A stretch of 64,000 bases of DNA from Clostridium sp. Marseille-P3244 (GTDB lineage Bacteria > Bacillota > Clostridia > Lachnospirales > Lachnospiraceae), in contig NZ_LT635549.1 in assembly GCF_900120155.1 (NCBI RefSeq), forward strand, positions 2,016,688 through 2,080,687. Direction: 5' to 3'. The notes under the pieces were generated by a model. The model worked only from the letters and a program-made list of their open reading frames with translations. It did not search any database and had not been told where the DNA came from. This document shows, piece by piece, positions 1-15,335 of the stretch. Numbering within the stretch: the stretch's first letter is position 1; the number at the start of each line of letters is the position of its first letter. The position numbers and the translations under genes are program-made.

Positions 1-179
1 GAACGCTTGCCAGAGAGCTTGTAGACAGTACCAAAGCCATTAGGTAATTTTGTGGGTTTCCCATTTCTTATACGCGGTTTAGTACTTGTGGGGCTATTCA
101 TAGGATAACCGCAATGAGGGCAGGCGGCTGCTTTGTCAGATACATCATGTTGACATTCAGGACATTTTAATAACGACAT
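1..179 (-). CDS. Tyrosine-type integrase, N-terminal fragment
   Basis: Partial gene reading leftward out of the window, about 59 codons visible from ATG 179-177. The first 30 residues form a zinc ribbon (CPECQHD then CPHCGYP, a C-x2-C / C-x2-C pair). This is followed by the segment LPNGFGTVYKLSGKR, which I recognise from the start of integrases on Lachnospiraceae genomic islands (arm-binding domain). The catalytic domain lies outside the window, so the family call rests on the N-terminus and on position at the element end beside a repressor. The start codon follows the repressor stop codon directly, so the two are co-transcribed and the repressor operator would also control integrase. Confidence 0.7.
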   Translation of the reverse strand, partial: MSLLKCPECQHDVSDKAAACPHCGYPMNSPTSTKPRIRNGKPTKLPNGFGTVYKLSGKR

Positions 180-836
180 TTAATCACTTCCTTTTTTGTA
201 TTCTTTCTTCCATTCGTCAAGTTGTTTTTGAATACAGTGTAGTGCATGAGATTCTAATATAGATACAGGAACGTGTATTGTACCATACGCAGGAGAGCCG
301 AGAACTTCGTAATTCAGCTTTTTACCTATTGTAACTGTCTTTTCTCCATTTGTTAGCATGATGCTTTCTCCTGGTTCTTCTGATTCTACATAGGTCTGAA
401 GATGCTGGTCAAAATGTACGGGAGTATCGTAATCGTTATCTAAATATAGTGATAAGTTACTTAAAAAGCTACCATATATAGCGTAATCTCTCATGATAAA
501 GTTGATGAGATCTACTATATAACCACTTCTTTTTAAAATTTTTAGAGTTTGGATAGCATTATCATCTAATCCAGTTTTTTCGCTTATGTATGAATCTTCA
601 ATACGTCTACAATTTGAACGACCAAGTAAATAATCTATGCTTACATTGTAAAGATTTGCTAATTTGCTTGCATATTCAAGAGTAGGATAATTATGTCCTT
701 GTTCATAATTTTGATATGTCTTTAGCACACATCCTATTTTTTCTGATACTTGTGTCTGGTTATATCCAGATTCTTTTCGCAGTTCAACTATTCTGTTTTT
801 TTTATACCAAATAGGAATATCTATTACTTTTCTCAT
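180..836 (-). CDS. XRE-family repressor (CI/Stl-like)
   Basis: Protein of 218 residues with an N-terminal helix-turn-helix at about residues 15-70 (RIVELRKESGYNQTQVSEKI, then SIDYLLGRS, the usual XRE domain end). The C-terminal two thirds resemble no domain I can name and lack a visible LexA-type Ser/Lys protease motif. It reads away from the replication operon across a divergent promoter region and is joined to integrase without a gap. By analogy with phage CI and satellite Stl repressors it should keep the rightward operon silent. Since no self-cleavage domain is visible, release by a helper-phage antirepressor protein (as for Stl) is more likely than RecA-driven cleavage; that is inference. 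Confidence 0.75.
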   Translation of the reverse strand: MRKVIDIPIWYKKNRIVELRKESGYNQTQVSEKIGCVLKTYQNYEQGHNYPTLEYASKLANLYNVSIDYLLGRSNCRRIEDSYISEKTGLDDNAIQTLKILKRSGYIVDLINFIMRDYAIYGSFLSNLSLYLDNDYDTPVHFDQHLQTYVESEEPGESIMLTNGEKTVTIGKKLNYEVLGSPAYGTIHVPVSILESHALHCIQKQLDEWKKEYKKGSD

Positions 837-894
837 TGATTCAAACCTCTTTTTACGTTTAATTTAGGAATATGAATTCCTTATTGATACTGCT

Positions 895-923
895 ATTATA
901 AGATTACAACGAACGTTCGTCAA
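895..923 (-). promoter_or_regulatory. Leftward promoter of repressor-integrase operon with palindromic operator
   Basis: Read on the minus strand: TTGACG (923-918), a 17-base spacer, TATAAT (900-895). The spacer and -35 contain the perfect 12-bp palindrome ACGAACGTTCGT (909-920), well placed as an operator. A second inverted repeat, GGAAT-N4-ATTCC (867-880), lies just downstream of the start site. No equally clear rightward promoter was found for the gene at 961. Confidence 0.65.
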
Positions 924-960
924 GTAATAACTATTGATATTATTATTTTGGAGGTATGGC

Positions 961-1146
961 ATGAAGAATCTTGATATAAGAAACTATGCAAAAGAACGCG
1001 GGGTCAATCTGTGGGAAGTATCAGAACAATTAGGATATGCACATGAAACAGCTTTTTCAAGAGTATTAAGGCATGAACTCCCAGAGGATAAAAAAGCAGA
1101 AATCAAAGCAATAATTGACGAACTGGCAACAGAAGCAGGACGGTGA
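961..1146 (+). CDS. Small helix-turn-helix regulator
   Basis: Protein of 61 residues beginning MKNLDIRNYAKERG. The segment NYAKERGVNLWEVSEQLGYA followed by a second short helix has the spacing of a helix-turn-helix, and proteins of this kind are common first genes of early operons on Lachnospiraceae phage-like elements. ATG 961 is chosen because GGAGG (950-954) lies seven bases upstream; an in-frame TTG at 934 has no such site. It is the first gene of the rightward operon, divergent from the repressor, a Cro/Str-like position. Function as the counter-regulator is inference. Confidence 0.65.
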   Translation: MKNLDIRNYAKERGVNLWEVSEQLGYAHETAFSRVLRHELPEDKKAEIKAIIDELATEAGR

Positions 1147-1151
1147 TTTAT

Positions 1152-1376
1152 ATGTCAGATATTACATTTGACTGCGCGAATGTTCCGGTATCAGTAGCGG
1201 CGCAGGCTCTAAAAATGGATAGTCAGACTGTTCGGCTGCTGCTTCAACAGGGCGTTGTTTCATGGGGGTGTGCATACAAAAGGACACCAAAAAGCCAGCA
1301 TTATTCTTATCTGATCTATCCTAAAAAATTCTATGAGGAAACAGGCTTTGTTTACAAAGGGGGTGCGGAATCATGA
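1152..1376 (+). CDS. Excisionase-like winged-helix DNA-binding protein
   Basis: Protein of 74 residues. The segment VPVSVAAQALKMDSQTVRLL is a MerR/excisionase-type helix-turn-helix, followed by a basic aromatic strand region ending in YPKKFYEETG, which is a recurrent form in Firmicute phage and island proteins of this size. ATG 1152 is preferred over GTG 1143 because GGTGAT (1142-1147) can pair with the 16S anti-Shine-Dalgarno at suitable spacing for 1152 only. It may direct integrase to excision or act as an early regulator. It overlaps the next gene by four bases (ATGA). Confidence 0.6.
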   Translation: MSDITFDCANVPVSVAAQALKMDSQTVRLLLQQGVVSWGCAYKRTPKSQHYSYLIYPKKFYEETGFVYKGGAES

Positions 1377-1567
1377 CGATAAAGGCAAATAGGATACTGC
1401 TAGAGAGACAGGCATCTATAGAGGTAGAATGCATCCATTGGAAAACAATGCAGACAGATTATAGTTATGATCTCGATTTCTACAGATTTTGTGACTGGAA
1501 AATAAATTCTTTAAATGAAGAAGCAGAGCAGATACGTTATGTGTTAGAAACGGGGTACTGTGAATGA
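1373..1567 (+). CDS. Hypothetical 64-residue protein of the replication operon
   Basis: Not recognised. The product is 64 residues, mixed charge, with no membrane segment, no cysteine motif and no evident fold. ATGA overlaps on both sides (with 1376 and with 1564) show it is translated within the operon between the excisionase-like gene and the primase-helicase. Small accessory replication proteins often sit here in phage-like elements, but no function can be assigned. Confidence 0.55.
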   Translation: MTIKANRILLERQASIEVECIHWKTMQTDYSYDLDFYRFCDWKINSLNEEAEQIRYVLETGYCE

Positions 1568-3747
1568 CTGACAATGAAATTTTTGAGAATAACCTGCAGT
1601 TTTTTGATGTAAAGAACCGTTACGAGAATAAAGCGCAATGCAGGTGTCCGGCGCATGATGATAAACACGCTTCTTTAACTGTCACAAAGGGGAGAAAATG
1701 TACATTGTTTTACTGTCATGCGGGTTGTAAGGTAGATGCAGTTTTACGGGCAGCAGGACTTATGAAGAAAGATACGTTTTATGATGCGGCACCGAGAAGC
1801 CCGAACTGGCGAGCCTATGTGGAGGGGAGAGAGAAACGCCGGATTGAAGCAGTTTACCACTACTATTCTATTAACGGTGCATATGCTTTTACCAAGATTA
1901 GGCTTGAGGGCAAAAAAATTTTATATGGTAAGTTGGAAAACGGGCGTTTTACTTATGGTATCGGCAGGACAGGAAGGAAGAGCTATAAAGCTATCTATGG
2001 TAATGCACAAGCCTTAAATAAGACGATTGCAGAGGGAAATCCTATATTTATACCCGAGGGTGAAAAAGATGTCGATACACTCACAAAACAAGGCTATACA
2101 GCGATAACTTACGGCGGGGTTAATGATTGGCAAGCAGATTTCGCACCATTGTTTAAAGATGCCATTGTATATGTCTTGTCAGATAATGATGAGCCAGGGC
2201 GTAGAGTTGCAGATAAAATATGTGCTGATCTACAGGAAATTGCTAAGAGCGTAAAAGTAATACTTCCTGTGCCGGATATTGCCAAAGGAGATATAACAGA
2301 CTACTTTGAAGCAGGGCATAGCAAAGAAGAGTTTGAGAGGCTTCTTCCTTGTGAAATACCCGTTACAGATAACAACCGCATGACAGCAGAAAATCAAGTG
2401 AATGATGTCCGTCAAATGCTCATGTACAAGGTTGAATACGACAAGGACGGAAACGAGAAAAGCAGAAAGCTGATCCAGAATGTAAAAAATTTTGAGATAG
2501 TGCTAGAGAATGACGGCAGATTCAGAGATAAGATTAAATTTGACGAATTTTCACAGCAAACATATTTAATGGGTAATACACCGTGGGAAGATTCCAGAAA
2601 TAACTATAGGGCGTGGAGCTCATTTGATGATTCAGCACTGTTTTCTATCTTGCAGTCCGATTATGGACTGACAGGACGTAATGATTATTTTGACGCCGTA
2701 AAAAATGTGGCTATGAGGCATAGATTTCATCCGGTCAGAGAATTGCTAGATTCATTTGAATGGGATGAGCAAGAACATATAAGAAAACTGTTACCAGATT
2801 ATCTGGGGACTGAAGATTCTGACTATAACTATCAGGTCTGGCGGTTGTGGATGCTGGGGGCGGTATCGAGAATTTATCATCCGGGATGCAAATTTGATTA
2901 CACAGTTATTCTTCAGGGGAGACAAGGGCTCGGGAAGAGCACATTTCTTCAGCTCATGGCTTTAAATGATAGCTGGTTCAATGATTCTCTTGATAGCCTA
3001 GATTCGGATAAAGCGGCGCAGTCGCTTATGGGATCATGGATTATAGAACTTGCAGAACTCAAATCTCTCGCACGGACTGCCGGAGGTGTGGATTCAGTGA
3101 AGCGATTCTTGACAGCTACACAGGATAAATACCGCGTACCATATGAGCGCAGGGCCGATATATTTCTCAGACAATCGGTATTTGCAGGCACAACGAATAA
3201 AAGTGACTTTCTGCAGGATGAAACAGGAAACAGGCGTTTCTTAATTGTTCAGACAGGAGTGAAAGAACCGAAGAAAAGTCTGTTTGATCCGCAAGCCATG
3301 GACGATATTAAAGCTGCATGGGCGGAAGCTGTTCATATTTATAAAACTGAGAAACCTAAATTACTGCTGCCTGAATCATGTAAGAAACGTGCTGAAGAAT
3401 TACAGGCAGAAAGTATGTTAGATGATGGCAAGGTGGGAATCATTCAAGAGTATCTGTCAGACAAACATAGGACGTGTGCAATCGAGATATGGCAGAAAGC
3501 ATTGAACGAATCGGGACGCCCCGCAAAGTGGCAGGCATCAGAGATTAATAACATTATTCTTAGTTTACCAGATTGGGAGCGCATACCGAATCCAGTTAAA
3601 TTTGGAGAGTACGGAAGTCAAAGAGGTTTCCGGAGACGTACTACAAACACGTTACTAGAAAAAGATTGTGGTTTCAGTTTGAAAGATTGTAGCAGTGATT
3701 TTATGGAAATTTCAGAAACAGAGCTTCCAGGATTACCGTTTGATTAA
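1564..3747 (+). CDS. VapE-family primase-helicase
   Basis: Protein of 727 residues. Residues 20-60 carry a CHC2-type zinc finger (C28, H31, C51, C55), as in bacterial primases. Residues about 160-215 are a TOPRIM domain (PEGEKD, then LSDNDEPG). Residues about 380-640 are a virulence-associated-E type P-loop ATPase with Walker A GRQGLGKST at 452-460. The combination is the replication initiator of many prophages and of satellites: it primes and unwinds at the element's own origin, which in satellites usually lies directly downstream. The start overlaps the previous stop by four bases. The last residues are followed by the repeat-rich gap at 3748-3967. Confidence 0.85.
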   Translation: MTDNEIFENNLQFFDVKNRYENKAQCRCPAHDDKHASLTVTKGRKCTLFYCHAGCKVDAVLRAAGLMKKDTFYDAAPRSPNWRAYVEGREKRRIEAVYHYYSINGAYAFTKIRLEGKKILYGKLENGRFTYGIGRTGRKSYKAIYGNAQALNKTIAEGNPIFIPEGEKDVDTLTKQGYTAITYGGVNDWQADFAPLFKDAIVYVLSDNDEPGRRVADKICADLQEIAKSVKVILPVPDIAKGDITDYFEAGHSKEEFERLLPCEIPVTDNNRMTAENQVNDVRQMLMYKVEYDKDGNEKSRKLIQNVKNFEIVLENDGRFRDKIKFDEFSQQTYLMGNTPWEDSRNNYRAWSSFDDSALFSILQSDYGLTGRNDYFDAVKNVAMRHRFHPVRELLDSFEWDEQEHIRKLLPDYLGTEDSDYNYQVWRLWMLGAVSRIYHPGCKFDYTVILQGRQGLGKSTFLQLMALNDSWFNDSLDSLDSDKAAQSLMGSWIIELAELKSLARTAGGVDSVKRFLTATQDKYRVPYERRADIFLRQSVFAGTTNKSDFLQDETGNRRFLIVQTGVKEPKKSLFDPQAMDDIKAAWAEAVHIYKTEKPKLLLPESCKKRAEELQAESMLDDGKVGIIQEYLSDKHRTCAIEIWQKALNESGRPAKWQASEINNIILSLPDWERIPNPVKFGEYGSQRGFRRRTTNTLLEKDCGFSLKDCSSDFMEISETELPGLPFD

Positions 3748-3967
3748 GATTGTAGCCGAAAATGTAGTAAGAATGTAGACGGCTCAAACCCTTGATTTTC
3801 CTATATATTCTACTATTACTACATTCTCTACAAAGAAATAAAAGAGTTATAAGAAATAATAGAGAAGAGGATATATACAGTTATATAAAAGTCTTTGAGA
3901 TTGTGACCGTAGTTTGTAGTCATTGTAGAAACGGTTTTTATTGTAACGGTTTTTGGAGGTTATTAAT
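3748..3967. other. Candidate replication origin with TGTAG repeats
   Basis: A 220-base gap, very A+T-rich, between the primase-helicase and the next operon gene. The pentamer TGTAG occurs at 3751, 3763, 3773, 3915 and 3924, with one more inside the end of the primase gene at 3688. The inverse CTACA is at 3819 and 3828, so the left cluster faces the central pair as an inverted repeat. Near the right end AACGGTTTTT appears twice. A repeat array beside the initiator gene with an A+T-rich centre is typical of phage and satellite origins; origin activity is inferred. Confidence 0.5.
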
Positions 3968-4189
3968 GTGAATTACTGGAATTTATACAAAGATGTCTGG
4001 GATTTTCACAAGAAGTATGCAGAGGTAAAAAACACGGATGATTATTATTCGGCTCTAGCTGAAGAAAGTTCTGGAATAGCAAAAAAATATGAAAACCATA
4101 AATTTGCAGTTGATCTGCTGCTTGCCGTTGTGAATGAGTTGGAGCGTAAGTGTAAGGAGATGGCTAATAATGCAGACAAAACAGTATAA
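3968..4189 (+). CDS. Hypothetical 73-residue protein
   Basis: Not recognised by name. Product of 73 residues, largely helical in look, beginning at GTG 3968 with GGAGGT (3955-3960) seven bases upstream; the out-of-frame ATG at 3966 is not used. The end overlaps the HNH gene by 20 bases, so translation is coupled. Small acidic/helical proteins at this point are common in phage-derived operons just before an HNH and terminase pair, but no role can be given. Confidence 0.6.
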   Translation: MNYWNLYKDVWDFHKKYAEVKNTDDYYSALAEESSGIAKKYENHKFAVDLLLAVVNELERKCKEMANNADKTV

Positions 4190-4415
4190 GGATTATATGC
4201 GAAGTAATAAATGGAAGCGCAAGAAACAGGAACGCATAGCCATAGATGGTGGCTGTGTGATGTGTGGCAGACCACTTGATAAGATTAGAAGCGTACAGGT
4301 GCATCATATCACTTATGCAAGACTGGGGAATGAAAATGTACTTACAGATCTGTGTACATTGTGTGGTTCGTGTCACAAGAAGATTCACGCATATTATAAC
4401 CGGCGTAGAGCTTAG
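4170..4415 (+). CDS. HNH endonuclease
   Basis: Protein of 81 residues. The core shows VHHITY (the first catalytic His pair), a CVMC zinc pair before it and CTLCGSCHKKIH after it, which is the standard small HNH nuclease with a structural zinc. ATG 4170 has AAGGAGA (4154-4160) at nine bases. In HK97-type phages an HNH nuclease next to the terminase stimulates cos cleavage and packaging. Here it stands just before a TerS-like gene, which supports a packaging role. No large terminase follows. Confidence 0.85.
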   Translation: MQTKQYKDYMRSNKWKRKKQERIAIDGGCVMCGRPLDKIRSVQVHHITYARLGNENVLTDLCTLCGSCHKKIHAYYNRRRA

Positions 4416-4486
4416 TGCAACGAATAAGGTGACATCACAAAAAAGGAACTAAAAAACAGCCGTTAAAGGCAGAAAAGAGGTTAAAG

Positions 4487-5008
4487 ATGGGAAAACGTAA
4501 TTATCCGCAAGCCGGATTAGACAACATGGAACCGTCAACAGTACAGGAAATAGTTGGATCGCTCAAAGAATTGTACGATTTAGGCAGGCCGCAGACGGAC
4601 GAAGAAACAAAACAGAGAATTGATGATTACTTTTCGTTTTGTGAACGTTCTTCAATTCGTCCCGGGATTGAGTCGCTCTGTATGGCGTTACATATAAGCA
4701 GAACAACGCTTTTTCGGTGGAGCCATGGCGAAGACTGTTCGGAATGTAAGAAAGATTTGATTCTTGCGGCAAAGGCTTTTATCGGCGCTTTTCTTGAGCA
4801 GGCTATGCTCGGTGGGAAAATTTCTCCACCGTCAGGAATATTCCTTATGAAAAATTGGCTGTCATACAAAGATGCTATCAGTATTGAGGAAAATATACCT
4901 GATACACCTACAAGAAAGGTTCTGACTGCTGCCGAATTGCCAACATTAGGAGATACCGCACAGATTAAAACAGAAGAACTTCCGAAGTTGGGGGAGGTAC
5001 TGGAATGA
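4487..5008 (+). CDS. Terminase small subunit-like protein (TerS)
   Basis: Protein of 173 residues. Residues about 60-85 (SLCMALHISRTTLFRWSHGE) form a helix-turn-helix; residues about 100-125 contain an oligomer-helix region ending PPSGIFLMKNWLSYKDA, which matches the conserved end motif of P22 gp3-type small terminases (I/F-x-LKN-x-x-GYKD form). TerS binds pac/cos DNA and hands it to the large subunit. In satellites a private TerS redirects helper packaging to satellite DNA. The neighbouring HNH gene supports the call; the absence of a large subunit is the striking point. A plain HTH regulator is the alternative. Confidence 0.6.
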   Translation: MGKRNYPQAGLDNMEPSTVQEIVGSLKELYDLGRPQTDEETKQRIDDYFSFCERSSIRPGIESLCMALHISRTTLFRWSHGEDCSECKKDLILAAKAFIGAFLEQAMLGGKISPPSGIFLMKNWLSYKDAISIEENIPDTPTRKVLTAAELPTLGDTAQIKTEELPKLGEVLE

Positions 5009-5295
5009 GTATGAAACGGATTGAAGATATTGTATATTCTGAAATGGAAAATACTATATCTAGTAATGGATACATTCTGGAAACGGTTTTTAGTAACGCT
5101 CTTCATATGAAATACGGGTATTCCAGGAGTGCAATAATGCTTGCTATGCGGCGCTTATATGGGAGAATGGCACTAATTAAGCGGAGACTGTCAAATGATT
5201 TGAAGAGAGTTTATAAAATTGATCAAAGCGGCTGTCCGATAGTGTATGTGCCAGAAAATGATTTTGACATTAACGAAACTAAATCTATGAATTGA
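5005..5295 (+). CDS. Hypothetical 96-residue protein
   Basis: Not recognised. The product is 96 residues, starts at ATG 5005 overlapping the TerS stop by four bases, and has a basic central part (MRRLYGRMALIKRRLSNDLK) that could be a winged-helix or other nucleic-acid-binding fold. The ATGA coupling places it functionally with the TerS-like gene. No membrane segment or catalytic motif is visible. Confidence 0.5.
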   Translation: MSMKRIEDIVYSEMENTISSNGYILETVFSNALHMKYGYSRSAIMLAMRRLYGRMALIKRRLSNDLKRVYKIDQSGCPIVYVPENDFDINETKSMN

Positions 5296-5315
5296 GAAAG
5301 GATGGAACACAATAT

Positions 5316-6239
5316 ATGCGATACAAGAAATATGTAAAAAAAATTACAGAGACACTGGAGCAGTACAAGAAAGAAGTTGACACATTGGAGGCAGGGCTTT
5401 TGTTGGGCAAACAAAAGTTAGATGCAAAAACAAAAGAAATGGAGGGGAAATGGACAGAGGAATATATTCAAAAGTATAGGATAAATAATAACCCTGATAT
5501 AAATTGTAAGGCTCGATTTCAGGGCTTGAGAGCATGGGCAGAACCTATAATTCTTCATTATCTCGAGGAAATTAAGAAAAGTCTGGATCAGTATTTTAAC
5601 GCACCAGTAAAGGTCGATTTTGCAAATAAGATTACGACCATAAAATTATCAGGACTGCAGTTGACAGATCTTGAATTCAGCATACTGCAGGAGGGAGCAA
5701 CGAGTTATATGGAGCGGCGCTTACTTAACCAGTTAGCTGAAAGCAGAACAAAAGAAGCAAGCGTTGCAAAAGCAAAAGATAACGGGCAAATTGAATATGA
5801 AAAAGGAACTGTAAAAGATCCGTATATACATCTTGACCTTCCGAATATAGAAGAAATTTATGAAGCCTTTAATAACTATAAGAGGGCGGTTACCGGGTTG
5901 CTGTATTCATATGCCGGGCAAAATGCAAAAATGGCGCATTTGCTCGATAATAAGACACCGGATTATGTGGCTATAAACATGGATGTCTATTTTAGAAAAG
6001 ATGAAGCAGGAAAGTTTTCTACAATTATGGATCAGGCCAATAGTATATTGCCGGAGAATAAGATTAAACGTGAACTCACGGAGAACGACAAACGCTTAAT
6101 TGATATATTGATAAATCCGCAGTATCCTACTCTTGCAAGAGATAAGGTGATAAAAATTGCTCAGTGCAATGAGGATATTGGAGAACTGTTACGCTTAGAT
6201 GAACGCTATAAAGATTATCTTCAGGACGAAGAATCTTAA
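5316..6239 (+). CDS. Hypothetical 307-residue coiled-coil protein
   Basis: Not recognised. Residues about 1-45 are strongly heptad-like (KKITETLEQYKKEVDTLEAG), followed by a mixed alpha/beta region with no motif I know. It does not look like a capsid, portal or scaffold protein, but a morphogenesis-interference or capsid-redirecting role, as seen in other satellites, cannot be excluded. ATG 5316 is chosen; a TTG at 5292 would give a four-base overlap with the previous gene but has no ribosome site. It is the last gene before a terminator at 6253-6283, so it closes the operon that begins at 961. Confidence 0.6.
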   Translation: MRYKKYVKKITETLEQYKKEVDTLEAGLLLGKQKLDAKTKEMEGKWTEEYIQKYRINNNPDINCKARFQGLRAWAEPIILHYLEEIKKSLDQYFNAPVKVDFANKITTIKLSGLQLTDLEFSILQEGATSYMERRLLNQLAESRTKEASVAKAKDNGQIEYEKGTVKDPYIHLDLPNIEEIYEAFNNYKRAVTGLLYSYAGQNAKMAHLLDNKTPDYVAINMDVYFRKDEAGKFSTIMDQANSILPENKIKRELTENDKRLIDILINPQYPTLARDKVIKIAQCNEDIGELLRLDERYKDYLQDEES

Positions 6240-6252
6240 GACGTATGCTTGA

Positions 6253-6283
6253 GGGAGTAGTGTTATGCTACCCCCTTTTTTTT
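6253..6283 (+). terminator. Rho-independent terminator of the satellite operon
   Basis: GGGAGTAG, a seven-base loop and CTACCCCC form a stem with one mismatch, followed by eight T. It lies 14 bases after the stop of the 307-residue protein. Confidence 0.85.
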
Positions 6284-6313
6284 CAAGTATTAAATCTGAC
6301 GTATATAAAAATG

Positions 6314-6390
6314 GTATCAAAAGTAATTGACAACAACAATAATAAGATATAAAATAATAGTATCAAAATTAATGAACGTTAGATTTGATA
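6314..6390 (+). promoter_or_regulatory. Promoter and TATCAAA operator array before serine recombinase
   Basis: TTGACA (6327-6332), a 17-base spacer and TAAAAT (6350-6355) form a strong promoter. GTATCAAAA occurs at 6314-6322, running into the -35, and again at 6360-6368 just after the -10; an inverted copy TTTGATA is at 6384-6390. The second and third copies form a 30-base imperfect palindrome. The ribosome site AAGGAG and ATG 6410 follow. The arrangement predicts repression, possibly by the recombinase itself or by the element repressor. Confidence 0.65.
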
Positions 6391-6409
6391 TTAAAAAGGA
6401 GCGTCAAAT

Positions 6410-7096
6410 ATGTGTATATATGGATATTGCAGGATTAGTACAAAGCAGCAGAGCATTGATCGTCAAATACGGAATATAAAAGCCGAATATGGAGATGCGG
6501 TTATTGTAACGGAGATTTACACAGGAACAAAGCAAGATAGACCGGAATGGAATAAATTATACAAAAAAGTAAAGTCGGGAGATACGATTGTGTTTGATAG
6601 CGTATCTCGTATGAGCAGGAACGAAGATGAGGGGTTCTGTTTATATGAAGATTTATATACAAAGGGGGTAGAGTTGGTCTTCTTGAAAGAACCGCATATA
6701 AACACCGTTACATATAAACACGCATTACAAAGCAATATAGCTCTTACAGGAACGAATGTGGATTATATTTTAGAGGGCGTAAATAAGTATCTTATGGCAC
6801 TTGCTAAAGAGCAGATAAGACTTGCTTTTGAACAGTCAGAGAAAGAGGTACAGGACTTGCATCAACGTACTAAAGAGGGAATAGAAACAGCAAGATTAAA
6901 CGGCAAGCAGATCGGACAGCGAAGAGGAGCAAAGCTTACAACAAAGAAATCAATAGAGGCAAAACAACAAATTCAAAGATATAGTAAAGATTTTGATGGA
7001 TCTTTGTCTGATGTGGATTGTTTAAAACTGACGGGGCTTGCTCGTAACACATATTACAAATACAAAAGAGAATTGAAAGTAGAACTGCAGGGCTGA
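6410..7096 (+). CDS. Small serine recombinase (resolvase/invertase family)
   Basis: Protein of 228 residues. The N-terminus YGYCRISTKQQSIDRQ holds the catalytic Ser within the R-x-S-T motif; FDSVSRMSRN is the second conserved arginine motif of the family. Residues about 125-180 are the long E helix, and the C-terminus ends in a helix-turn-helix (LTGLARNTYYKYKREL). Length and domain order match resolvase/invertase enzymes rather than large serine integrases. It stands alone between two non-coding stretches with a complex promoter. It could resolve dimers of the excised circle or invert a segment; no inverted target pair was found. Confidence 0.85.
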   Translation: MCIYGYCRISTKQQSIDRQIRNIKAEYGDAVIVTEIYTGTKQDRPEWNKLYKKVKSGDTIVFDSVSRMSRNEDEGFCLYEDLYTKGVELVFLKEPHINTVTYKHALQSNIALTGTNVDYILEGVNKYLMALAKEQIRLAFEQSEKEVQDLHQRTKEGIETARLNGKQIGQRRGAKLTTKKSIEAKQQIQRYSKDFDGSLSDVDCLKLTGLARNTYYKYKRELKVELQG

Positions 7097-7260
7097 ATGT
7101 CCTGCTTTTCTTATGTGTATTTTGGATACCGCCTAGGGGTCTGTAAGGAATGTTTGCATGGCTAGACTAAGTACGTCTTTCTGACTCAAATTTTCAAAAA
7201 GGACTATTCATTATTGAATTCAAAATAAAAAGTTGAAAAAGGATATGTTGTGGTAAAATA

Positions 7261-7297
7261 AAAGAGAAGCTACAAATTATGGAATCAGCTTCTCTTT
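7261..7297 (+). promoter_or_regulatory. Hairpin upstream of the sigma-factor gene
   Basis: AAAGAGAAGCT (7261-7271) and AGCTTCTCTTT (7287-7297) form a perfect 11-bp stem with a 15-base loop. The short T run after it makes it either a weak terminator for the recombinase unit or an attenuator/operator for the sigma gene. It lies 48 bases before ATG 7346. Of the 249-base gap 7097-7345 nothing else stands out. Confidence 0.5.
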
Positions 7298-7345
7298 GGC
7301 GAATTGCATCTATCTGTATTATATCAAAAAGGTAGGTGCTGTACA

Positions 7346-8230
7346 ATGACGAATGAACAAATTGTATCCCAGGTAAAAAAAGGTATTTCTGTAACGGAAA
7401 ATATGCAGCTTTTGTATGAGAAGAATCTGCCTTTAATAAAAAAATTTATACATCCATATATACATTATGAATCAGAAGAGGATTTACTGCAGGAGGCTTA
7501 TTTTGGATTATGGGAAGCAGTACAGCATTATGAATCTTCGGGAAAGGTTCTATTTATGACTTATGCTCAATATTGGGTGCGTCAGAATGTGCAGCGATAT
7601 ATAGAAAATAATAGCTTCGCAATCAGGATTCCGAGTGCATATAGACAAAAGATAGGTCGTTACAAGAAAGCAGTGCAAGAGCTTAAGCAGGATTTAGGCA
7701 GGATGCCAACGGATGATGAAATTTCAGAATATAGTCTGTTGTCTACGTCCGTAATACAGAAGATAAGAATTTATATGCGTGATGTCGTTAGTCTGGATGC
7801 TCCGTTAAAAGAAGATGAAAACTCGAGCCTGTCCGATATGGTATCAGATGATTACAACCTTGAAAATGATACAGTTGATAGAATATTCAATGAATATCAA
7901 AAAAATGAGATCTGGAATATTGTAGAGCGTTACACAGATAAACAACAAGATCGGATCATTAATGAATATTACAGAAAAGGAAAAACATTATTACAGATTG
8001 CTCGGGAGACTGGCTTGAGTTGGGGAAAAGTACGTCAATGCAGGGATGCAGGGATCCAGCGACTTAGAATGACCAAAGCTCAGAGAGAAATAAAACAGAA
8101 ATTTGAGATTGTTAATGCATCAGTTTATAGAACCGGACTCAATGGATTTAAAGCGCACGGAGATTCAATAGTAGAATATATAGCAGTACGCAATGTAGAA
8201 TTGGAAGAAAGCTTAAAGCGTGCATATTGA
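7346..8230 (+). CDS. Sigma-70 family RNA polymerase sigma factor, element-borne
   Basis: Protein of 294 residues with regions in order: region 2 at about 45-90 (EEDLLQEAYFGLWEAVQ, then FMTYAQYWVRQNVQRYI), region 3 at about 95-135 (IRIPSAYRQK, PTDDEISEYS), a region 3.2-like acidic linker (DAPLKEDENSSLSDM) and region 4 at about 195-240 (ARETGLSWGKVRQCRDAGI). An extra C-terminal tail of about 45 residues follows. Region 1.1 is absent. ATG 7346 is chosen with GGTAGGTG just upstream. An alternative sigma on a mobile element probably reads the element's or a helper's late promoters; this is inference. Confidence 0.85.
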   Translation: MTNEQIVSQVKKGISVTENMQLLYEKNLPLIKKFIHPYIHYESEEDLLQEAYFGLWEAVQHYESSGKVLFMTYAQYWVRQNVQRYIENNSFAIRIPSAYRQKIGRYKKAVQELKQDLGRMPTDDEISEYSLLSTSVIQKIRIYMRDVVSLDAPLKEDENSSLSDMVSDDYNLENDTVDRIFNEYQKNEIWNIVERYTDKQQDRIINEYYRKGKTLLQIARETGLSWGKVRQCRDAGIQRLRMTKAQREIKQKFEIVNASVYRTGLNGFKAHGDSIVEYIAVRNVELEESLKRAY

Positions 8231-8343
8231 CTTAACAAAAGATAAGGAGTATAGTAATAACAGTTGTAAAAAATAGTGGTAAAAGTTGTTTGGTAGCGCG
8301 CAGGTAGCACACAAATAATAAGAAAAAGCCAACAAATTAGACA

Positions 8344-8388
8344 TCGACAGTTTCCATTGAGGAAGCAGCAAAGGCAGGTAAGTTCTAG
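8344..8388 (+). pseudogene. 3' remnant of a host gene at the element's right edge
   Basis: Codons 8344-8388 read STVSIEEAAKAGKF then TAG, in codon usage like the chromosome rather than the element, and are followed 28 bases later by a strong terminator. An in-frame stop lies just upstream. The simplest reading is that the element integrated into the 3' end of a protein gene, restored that end at its left junction outside the window, and left this copy at the right junction. The host gene was not identified. Confidence 0.4.
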
Positions 8389-8416
8389 ACTGACGATTCA
8401 TAAATCTGAATCACAG

Positions 8417-8454
8417 AAACCGCGCTGGCCATATCAGGCCGGTGCGGTTTTTAT
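8417..8454 (+). terminator. Rho-independent terminator
   Basis: AAACCGCGCTGGCC, loop ATATCA and GGCCGGTGCGGTTT pair over 14 bp with two G-T wobbles and run into T5. It probably ended the host gene whose 3' remnant precedes it, and now also shields the next gene from the element. Confidence 0.85.
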
Positions 8455-8482
8455 AAAAGCAAAGAAGCGGGAGGTATGAAAT

Positions 8483-9100
8483 ATGAAAGTACTGATGATC
8501 AACGGTAGCCCTCACGCCAGAGGAAATACATACATCGCCTTGCGTGAGATGGAAAAGGTATTTGAACAGGAAGGAATAGAGACAGAGATCTTGCATATCG
8601 GGAATCAGGCGATCAGGGGATGTGTTGCCTGCGGCTCCTGTGCGAAGGCGGGAAAATGTGTTTTTGAGGACGCCGTGAACGAAGCAGCTTTGAAGTTTGA
8701 GAAAAGTGACGGCCTGGTGGTGGCCAGCCCGGTCTACTATGCCTCTGCCAACGCAACACTGGTGGCCTTCCTGGACCGGCTGTTCTACAGCACACATTTT
8801 GATAAGACAATGAAAGTAGGAGCCGCTGTGGCGGCGGCCAGAAGGGGCGGGTTATCCGCTGCTTTCGACGAATTGAACAAGTATTTTACGATCTCAGGCA
8901 TGCCGGTGGCGTCCGGACAATACTGGAACAGTATACACGGCGCTGCTCAGGGAGAGGCCAGTCAGGATCTGGAAGGTCTTCAGATTATGCGGACGCTTGC
9001 GAGAAACATGTCCTTTCTTATGAAGAGCATAGAACTGGGAAAAGAAAAATACGGGCTTCCGGAAAAGGAAGAATTCTGCAGGACAAATTTTATCCGCTAG
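8483..9100 (+). CDS. NAD(P)H-dependent FMN reductase / iron-sulfur flavoprotein-like
   Basis: Protein of 205 residues with a flavodoxin-like fold. INGSPHARGNT (residues 6-16) is the FMN phosphate loop, and SPVYYASANA (about 81-90) is the isoalloxazine-side loop. Residues 47-59 have the cluster C-x2-C-x2-C-x5-C, as in iron-sulfur flavoproteins of anaerobes, so a 4Fe-4S cluster beside FMN is likely. The probable role is electron transfer or reduction of quinone-like or oxidative-stress substrates in the cytosol. Ribosome site GGGAGG precedes ATG 8483. It forms a single-gene unit ended by a terminator at 9161-9193. First chromosomal gene right of the mobile element. Confidence 0.85.
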   Translation: MKVLMINGSPHARGNTYIALREMEKVFEQEGIETEILHIGNQAIRGCVACGSCAKAGKCVFEDAVNEAALKFEKSDGLVVASPVYYASANATLVAFLDRLFYSTHFDKTMKVGAAVAAARRGGLSAAFDELNKYFTISGMPVASGQYWNSIHGAAQGEASQDLEGLQIMRTLARNMSFLMKSIELGKEKYGLPEKEEFCRTNFIR

Positions 9101-11997: not shown

Positions 11998-12252
11998 AGA
12001 AAACCTCGCTTTCTGAAGATCTCTTCATCCGAAGATGATTTACATGGGAAATATCTCTAATGGTATAACTTTTTAGCCTATTGTACAAGTAAAGACCAGT
12101 AATTTAAAAAAATTTTTATTTTTCGATAAAGTATTACAAAAGTGTAAGCCGGACTGAGGAAATTGTAAGCTGTCTCGATGGAAATCCGGAAGAGCCCCTG
12201 ATAGGATAGAGTTGTAAAGATAAAACAGGATTTCCGGACAGGAGGGACAGAA

Positions 12253-14298: not shown

Positions 14299-15335
14299 GT
14301 GTAAAAAAGCGGGCCCTGCAGATCGTGCTGTTCCTTGTAATTATGCTGCTGACATTTTATGCCTTGTTCAGCGGCCGCAATTTGACGCAGATTGCCCGTT
14401 CAGTGTCGGAAATGTCGCCGCTGTATCTCATTCCCGCGGTGGGACTGGCTGTTTTTTTTGTGTGCGCTGAAGGTTACATGATCTGGTATCTTCTTCGTTC
14501 TATGAAAGCTCAGAAAAACGGCGGAAGGGCAAGCACACTTTTCCGTTGTATTCAGTATTCTTTTATCGGATTCTTTTATTCCGGAATTACTCCCTCCGCA
14601 TCAGGGGGACAGCCGATACAGCTTTATTATATGAACAAGGACGGAAACCGCGGGTCTGACAGTACAGTCGTCCTTATGACCGTGGCGGTGGCCTATAAAT
14701 TTGTGCTGGTGGTGATGGGATTCGGGATCCTCTTGTTCTGGTTTCGTCCGCTTACGGGAGAACTAGGGAAATATTTTCCACTGTATCTTCTCGGACTGGG
14801 ACTGAATGTGATCCTTGTCATCGTGATCCTGGGGGTGATGCTGTTCCCGAAGATCATGTTGAAAGCGGCGCTGTTTTTTGAACGGCTTTTTATCCGGATG
14901 AAGATATGGAAGCCATCCGATCAGAGAGAAGAGAAGATCCTGACATTTATTGACAGTTATCAGAACGCCGTGGCCTGGCTGAAGGAACATAAGGGAAAAC
15001 TTCTCATTGTGATACTTGTTACTTTTATCCAGAGATGCAGTGTGTTCGTTCTGACGTATATGGTCTATCTTGGATTCGGCCTGGAAGGAACCGGCGCGGC
15101 AAAAGTGATCCTTCTGCAGGCATCTGTGTATATTGCCGTGGACATGCTTCCTCTGCCAGGAGCACAGGGGATTACAGAGCTTATGTATCAGGCGGTGTTT
15201 GCCCGTGTGTTTACCGGAACATACCTGATCCCGTCGATGCTGGTCAGCCGGGGAATTAATTTTTATTTTCTTCTTGTGGTGAGCCTGGCAGTAGTAATTG
15301 CCGTGCGAGTCGCAGAAAAGAGGAAAAAACATTAA
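14295..15335 (+). CDS. Lysylphosphatidylglycerol-synthase-type TM protein (YbhN/AglD family)
   Basis: Membrane protein of 346 residues with about eight hydrophobic spans. The segments FIGFFYSGITPSASGGQPIQ and MLPLPGAQGITELMYQ are the two conserved motifs of the UPF0104 / LPG_synthase_TM family. Family members are the flippase half of MprF or companions of glycosyltransferases that handle lipid-linked sugars. The catalytic aminoacyl-transferase half of MprF is missing, so it is not an MprF. With the upstream glycosyltransferase it probably moves or serves a glycolipid. ATGA overlap with the preceding gene. Confidence 0.85.
   Translation: MSVKKRALQIVLFLVIMLLTFYALFSGRNLTQIARSVSEMSPLYLIPAVGLAVFFVCAEGYMIWYLLRSMKAQKNGGRASTLFRCIQYSFIGFFYSGITPSASGGQPIQLYYMNKDGNRGSDSTVVLMTVAVAYKFVLVVMGFGILLFWFRPLTGELGKYFPLYLLGLGLNVILVIVILGVMLFPKIMLKAALFFERLFIRMKIWKPSDQREEKILTFIDSYQNAVAWLKEHKGKLLIVILVTFIQRCSVFVLTYMVYLGFGLEGTGAAKVILLQASVYIAVDMLPLPGAQGITELMYQAVFARVFTGTYLIPSMLVSRGINFYFLLVVSLAVVIAVRVAEKRKKH

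Follow-up and report, generated by a model that had tools for sequence, protein, structure and literature searches.

The left edge of the 64,000-nucleotide stretch analyzed here (the window; Clostridium sp. Marseille-P3244, genome G000, C3:2016688-2080687) carries an integrase, a repressor, a replicase and a gene resembling that of a phage small terminase subunit (TerS), which raises the question of what kind of element this is and how it moves. We consider it probable, with good confidence, that this is a phage satellite with the way of life of a phage-inducible chromosomal island (PICI), and on sequence grounds another phage very probably supplies the particles in which it travels. The element is real and complete, and its lineage combines a TerS of the P22 gp3 type, an HNH endonuclease, a sigma factor and a serine recombinase. 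A first-pass annotation had read it as a Clostridia satellite of the Staphylococcus aureus pathogenicity island (SaPI) type; a PICI-like element with its own TerS and no recognized large terminase subunit (TerL) or capsid gene is indeed what we find, whereas its packaging is something we infer.

The element became complete once 12 kb of left flank (L005, in which position 12001 is window position 1) was joined to the window. It spans 10,221 bases (C3:2014820-2025040) from one copy of the sdaAA 3' end to the second, and the window opens 1,868 bases after its left end, which falls within the 3' end of an open reading frame (ORF; L005 9157-10167) that we take to be sdaAA, for L-serine dehydratase alpha. 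The two attachment (att) copies have 13 exact bases in common, followed by scattered differences over the rest of their 34 nt, and a relative in Mediterraneibacter glycyrrhizinilyticus (L009) occupies the same site with a perfect 34-bp repeat. The integrase and specific attachment site expected of a PICI are thus both present, with att repeats in two species. G+C content is 38% inside the element (measured on the part in L005) and 49% on either side. When the two flanks were joined into a 432-nt query, 7 of 58 genus genomes (G427, G398, G452, G423, G449, G410 and G407) matched it over its full length and so show the site empty, which supports the element boundaries; in the own genome the query matched as two separate pieces, 1-266 and 227-432. 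Ten genus genomes have both flanks of the sdaAA site on one contig, 1.5-10.5 kb apart, and may hold other insertions using this site. The right end had been placed at 8343, closed by a terminator; it is instead attR, and the terminator-like sequence lies past attR, in the host flank.

The repressor, divergent regulator, VapE, repeat-rich gap, HNH, TerS-like gene and 307-residue ORF named earlier are present at or near the positions then given (Table 1). The integrase is present too, but almost wholly left of the window, and the excisionase-like protein corresponds to a real ORF (X74), whose PHROG family of unknown function leaves the excisionase identity unproven. The serine recombinase, the sigma-70 gene and two helix-turn-helix (HTH) ORFs beyond the integrase had been omitted. 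Extension leftward to the far attachment site reached the two HTH_26 ORFs and attL in sdaAA, and neither TerL nor any structural gene was recognized in the element. No capsid family was found among the scanned element ORFs, with no search made by dedicated profiles of the SaPI capsid genes cpmA, cpmB, ccm and rcm. The TerS product has the gp3 fold, this fold match is specific, and family, fold and genomic context together support its identity as a gp3-type TerS. Its homologues in phages are located near TerL, and the TerL that accompanies gp3 TerS there is of the phrog_38 type.

This gene content is conserved, and related elements are found in other gut bacteria. In loci from IMG/VR and from genomes the genes run integrase, repressor, X74, replicase, U76, HNH, TerS, variable cargo, recombinase and sigma factor, with single genes absent or diverged in some relatives; in L014 and L015 other small ORFs take the place of P307, the 307-residue protein, between TerS and recombinase. 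G648 (L046, about 5.3 kb) and G752 (L048, about 5.7 kb) contain small elements that have an integrase, a repressor and a TerS, as does G607 (L047), where a contig end cuts the element. In 17 elements, 118 ORFs of at least 70 aa had no match in a reference set built from the present element, whose own ORFs necessarily match it. When all 118 were scanned, the 25 commonest families (of 64 in PHROGs and 43 in Pfam) included no large terminase, portal or capsid family. Of 20 selected unmatched ORFs scanned singly, one is tape-measure-like (L012 7541-10627, phrog_1535, E 2e-32); the others gave replicases, integrases, regulators or unknowns. Such proteins were seen in three sigma-bearing elements, by PHROGs in L012 and L116 and by phmmer in L112. 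As PLE11 of Vibrio cholerae is reported to encode a tape measure protein and diverse satellites to carry putative tmp genes (PMC12987554), their occurrence here fits a satellite life. The three genes (in L116 at 3961-5688, in L112 at 3999-8600) lie near a recombinase or sigma gene in small integrative elements.

The same genome holds a second member of the family. The motif ACGG-N3..8-TGTAACG, which was noted in relatives, has 7 matches in the genome: 5 cluster within 11 kb near C3:3000-14100, 1 is in the present element and 1 lies elsewhere; a reversed control gives 9 matches genome-wide, and it is the clustering, not the total, that counts. The cluster marks an element (L060, C3:2415-15145) at the 3' end of what is presumably rpsI, where a 13-bp repeat is found at 2415 and again at 15133; another relative, L010, adjoins the same ribosomal gene pair. 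L060 encodes an integrase, a repressor, X74, Y64, a replicase, HNH, U76, a 213-aa protein, a recombinase and a sigma factor 66% identical to that of the first element. In the TerS position, the 213-aa protein is a gp3-type TerS (PF16677, 34.5 bits against a cut-off of 29.4; phrog_606, E 6e-7) with only 24% identity to the first, the replicase is of another type, and the origin gap has TGTGCA-type rather than TGTAG repeats. The two residents therefore share their layout and differ in attachment site, replicase, origin repeats and TerS. A tentative extension, on balance somewhat doubtful, is that these belong to a Lachnospiraceae satellite lineage in which a dedicated sigma factor drives the satellite's own late genes and TerS, replicase/origin and attachment modules are exchanged, the two members in one genome each being matched to a different helper.

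Set beside known systems, the element is like Gram-positive PICIs and SaPIs with their own TerS in its integrase, its divergently arranged repressor and regulator, a replicase gene followed by repeats, TerS and specific attachment site, and in that no TerL or capsid gene was found in it; its size, too, is like that of SaPIs. It differs in the P22 gp3 type of its TerS, the adjacent HNH gene, the sigma-70 and serine recombinase genes at its right end and its Lachnospiraceae host. Capsid-forming PICIs are also satellites with packaging genes, but they carry their own head genes, of which none was found here. PLE satellites resemble three sigma-bearing relatives through the tape-measure-like proteins, a gene that the present copy does not have. 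Phage-inducible chromosomal minimalist islands (PICMIs) are likewise small satellites with few genes, but no terS homologue was identified in them (PMC10803314). Knowledge of satellite lifestyles is said there to rest for the most part on a limited set from bacteria of clinical relevance (PMC10803314). Satellites influence phage outcomes and gene transfer, and one gut Lachnospiraceae genome now offers a defined co-resident pair whose ends, candidate origins and TerS genes are identified. Direct tests can be made on this pair of induction, of the choice of helper and of what a sigma factor carried by a satellite does.

We propose that the element, integrated in the 3' end of sdaAA, would be silenced by its C1-type repressor until a helper phage relieved the repression. 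The integrase would then excise it, VapE would replicate it from the iteron region behind the vapE gene, and the packaging genes would be expressed. The gp3-type TerS, with HNH, would mark satellite DNA, as its family suggests, and feed it into the helper's large terminase and procapsid. Late in the cycle, the sigma factor most likely would bring the RNA polymerase of the host to the promoters of the satellite. The serine recombinase would probably resolve multimers, and P307, an accessory protein linked to TerS, would at a guess most likely target the assembly of the helper.

Several observations weigh against this reading. The element's TerS scores under the PF16677 cut-off (22.2 against 29.4 bits), Foldseek alone gives E values above 1, a GAACN4GTTC box was not found in the window, and the iterons of the present copy taken alone are not significant (p 0.42 in a direct-then-inverted 6-mer test). 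No matching helper is in sight either: searches of the own genome for PF03354 and phrog_38 TerL found no phrog_38 TerL, its only PF03354 TerL lies in a prophage with a phrog_9 TerL and a TerS of another type (phrog_83), and phrog_38 is present in 2 of 10 other genomes, as a partial match in G264 and in G722, which is itself the phage-TerS genome. Because no matching TerL was seen, the helper may be an infecting phage. TerS was also not seen at most loci that have only a lower-scoring sigma gene, and most such loci are not established as satellites. On this point an integrative plasmid-like element, whose TerS-like protein would serve replication or regulation by binding DNA, has something to offer: across 34 annotated sigma loci, many of them fragments and all annotated with small local profiles, a TerS was found in only 3, compared with 20 for an integrase, 10 for a replicase of a modelled type and 7 for a recombinase. 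L104, a 16.6-kb IMG/VR contig on which no integrase was found, has HNH, TerS, P307, recombinase and sigma genes beside a replicase and an ORF that reads as ParA-like, and may be a plasmid version of this kind of element. We nevertheless regard the plasmid-like explanation as quite unlikely, given that phage homologues of the TerS lie near TerL, that the fold match is specific and that relatives carry tape-measure-like proteins.

An immobile remnant of a prophage that has lost TerL and all structural genes would account for an order of replicase, HNH (read by eye in the prophage) and TerS resembling that of the resident prophage, and for damage in relatives, where the sigma gene has 8 in-frame stops in G176 and is split in two in G264. 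We consider this very improbable: several species share a similar gene set and order, two sites are occupied, the ORFs are mostly intact, both purifying selection and empty sites were observed, and independent decay is not expected to halt at the same genes each time. The satellite TerS might, on the other hand, mainly block helper packaging, with a site common to helper and element serving to package the element's DNA. HNH endonucleases are associated with cos phages, in keeping with such a scheme. Some known PICIs are reported to be packaged through helper pac or cos sequences and not by their own TerS (PMC6092414). The TerS is under purifying selection, however, and the sister element has a different gp3 TerS in its place, which makes this scheme very unlikely and suggests a helper-matched packaging function. 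In the resident prophage (L034, C3:1388000-1407900), two ParB-like ORFs and a DNA-methyltransferase-like ORF, named from their sequences, lie between TerS and the phrog_9 TerL.

Table 1. Features of the element, in window coordinates unless L005 is given.
Feature	Position	Strand	Evidence
Two small HTH ORFs (HTH_26) beyond integrase, then attL	Left of window, in L005		
Tyrosine integrase	L005 10977-12179; start at window 1-179	-	PF00589 E 8e-16; zinc ribbon
REP, Cro/C1-type repressor	180-836	-	HTH_3 E 3e-12
R61, small divergent regulator	961-1146	+	phrog_17740 E 2.5e-9, unknown-function family
X74, small excisionase-like ORF, kept in relatives	1152-1376	+	phrog_6058 E 9e-14, unknown-function family
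Y64, small conserved ORF without family	1373-1567	+	Pfam and PHROGs scans; relatives
VapE-type primase/helicase	1564-3747	+	PF05272 E 1e-69; phrog_1313 E 5e-123
Candidate replication origin; repeat-rich gap, TGTAG direct then inverted repeats round AT-rich core	3748-3967		
Copy of dispersed motif WACGK-N(3-9)-GTAACG, immediately 5' of packaging genes	3930-3948	+	
U76, small conserved ORF upstream of HNH	3968-4189	+	Relatives
HNH endonuclease	4170-4415	+	PF01844 E 1.7e-9
TerS, P22 gp3 type	4487-5008	+	
ORF directly after TerS	5005-5295	+	40% relatives in L014 and L015
P307, 307-aa helical protein without known family	5316-6239	+	89 homologues
Sigma-A-like promoter TTGACA-17-TAAAAT between AGTATCAAAA-type repeats, 5' of recombinase	6327-6355	+	Upstream sequences of 8 elements
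SREC, small serine recombinase	6410-7096	+	PF00239 E 1.7e-21
Leader of sigma gene, two predicted hairpins	7235-7345	+	
SIG, sigma-70 factor, regions 2, 3, 4	7346-8230	+	PF04542, PF04539 above cut-off; PF04545 just under
Right arm repeat GGTAGCACACAAAT, second copy at left end; candidate integrase arm site	8303-8316	+	
attR, second copy of sdaAA 3' end	8354-8387	+	Sequence comparison; joined-flank search

The sigma factor SIG lies inside the att sites in both the present element and L009 and holds the same place in relatives. Its assignment to sigma-70 rests on regions 2 and 3, above their Pfam cut-offs, and on region 4 at 22.6 against 24.1 bits. Matches of at least 390 bits occur in 7 of 397 genomes (G322, G262, G000 twice, G273, G176, G136 and G220), and a further 23 genomes, G264 among them, have a best extra match of 170-290 bits. 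Some match at E 1e-40 is present in 360 of the 397, and the lower limit of this class is not sharp, because matches under about 170 bits grade without a gap into ordinary host sigma factors. Among the sigma loci, only L110, a contig with a weak sigma match, was matched by locally made profiles for TerL, portal and capsid, each derived from 1 to 3 sequences. No satellite with its own sigma factor was described in the literature searched, as judged by titles and abstract openings; two of the papers found treat comX as an insertion site. In the predicted hairpins of the sigma leader, 6 of 15 pairs keep a double change across 8 sequences, with a covariation term of only -0.14 kcal/mol. The first hairpin begins a few bases after a -10-like box, an attenuator-like placement. 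The promoter call upstream of the recombinase uses what we take to be the sigma-A consensus.

The layout of the candidate origin, with short repeat copies, an AT-rich core and inverted copies behind the replicase, recurs in many elements. The repeat is TGTAG in the present element, L009 and L012, TGTGCA in L010, L014, L032 and L060, ATAGGC in L031 and TGTAGAC in L016 and L017. The 6-mer test over 14 elements gave p from 0.002 to 0.99 (combined p 1e-5), some of the elements being close relatives and not independent. When 12 elements were assigned to repeat classes by eye, the replicase followed the class, with a median C-terminal score of 478 in 14 same-class pairs and 33.5 in 52 different-class pairs; as exceptions, replicases are related between TGTAGT and TGTAGAC and between TGTGCA and ATAGGC. 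Eight elements each contain 2-5 copies of the dispersed motif WACGK-N3..9-GTAACG, where 0-0.1 would be expected, and 7 other relatives have none. Outside elements the motif occurs 0 times in 55.6 kb of window flank, once in 59.7 kb around the prophage, and 0 and 1 times in the L009 and L010 flanks. Its copies stand on both strands and inside genes too, and in 7 of 12 elements one lies just 5' of the packaging genes.

P307 had been singled out as an unrecognized protein at the position of capsid-interference genes; it indeed belongs to no known family, and an interference role is a guess. None of its 89 homologues has a named function. It was found in 3 of the 397 genomes, all among the 6 genomes with TerS, where it starts 0.5-1.4 kb after the TerS start; the third of these, G114, is a partial match (E 2e-10). 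REP had only HTH matches in Pfam, with no peptidase domain among them. The structural model of P307 is confident (predicted local distance difference test score, pLDDT, 86) and yielded no informative match in structural comparison; apart from a beta hairpin at 145-167 it consists mainly of helices. A role like that of SaPI Rcm is possible by analogy, since this capsid redirector too is reported to be multi-helical and without sequence similarity to known ones (PMC12409344).
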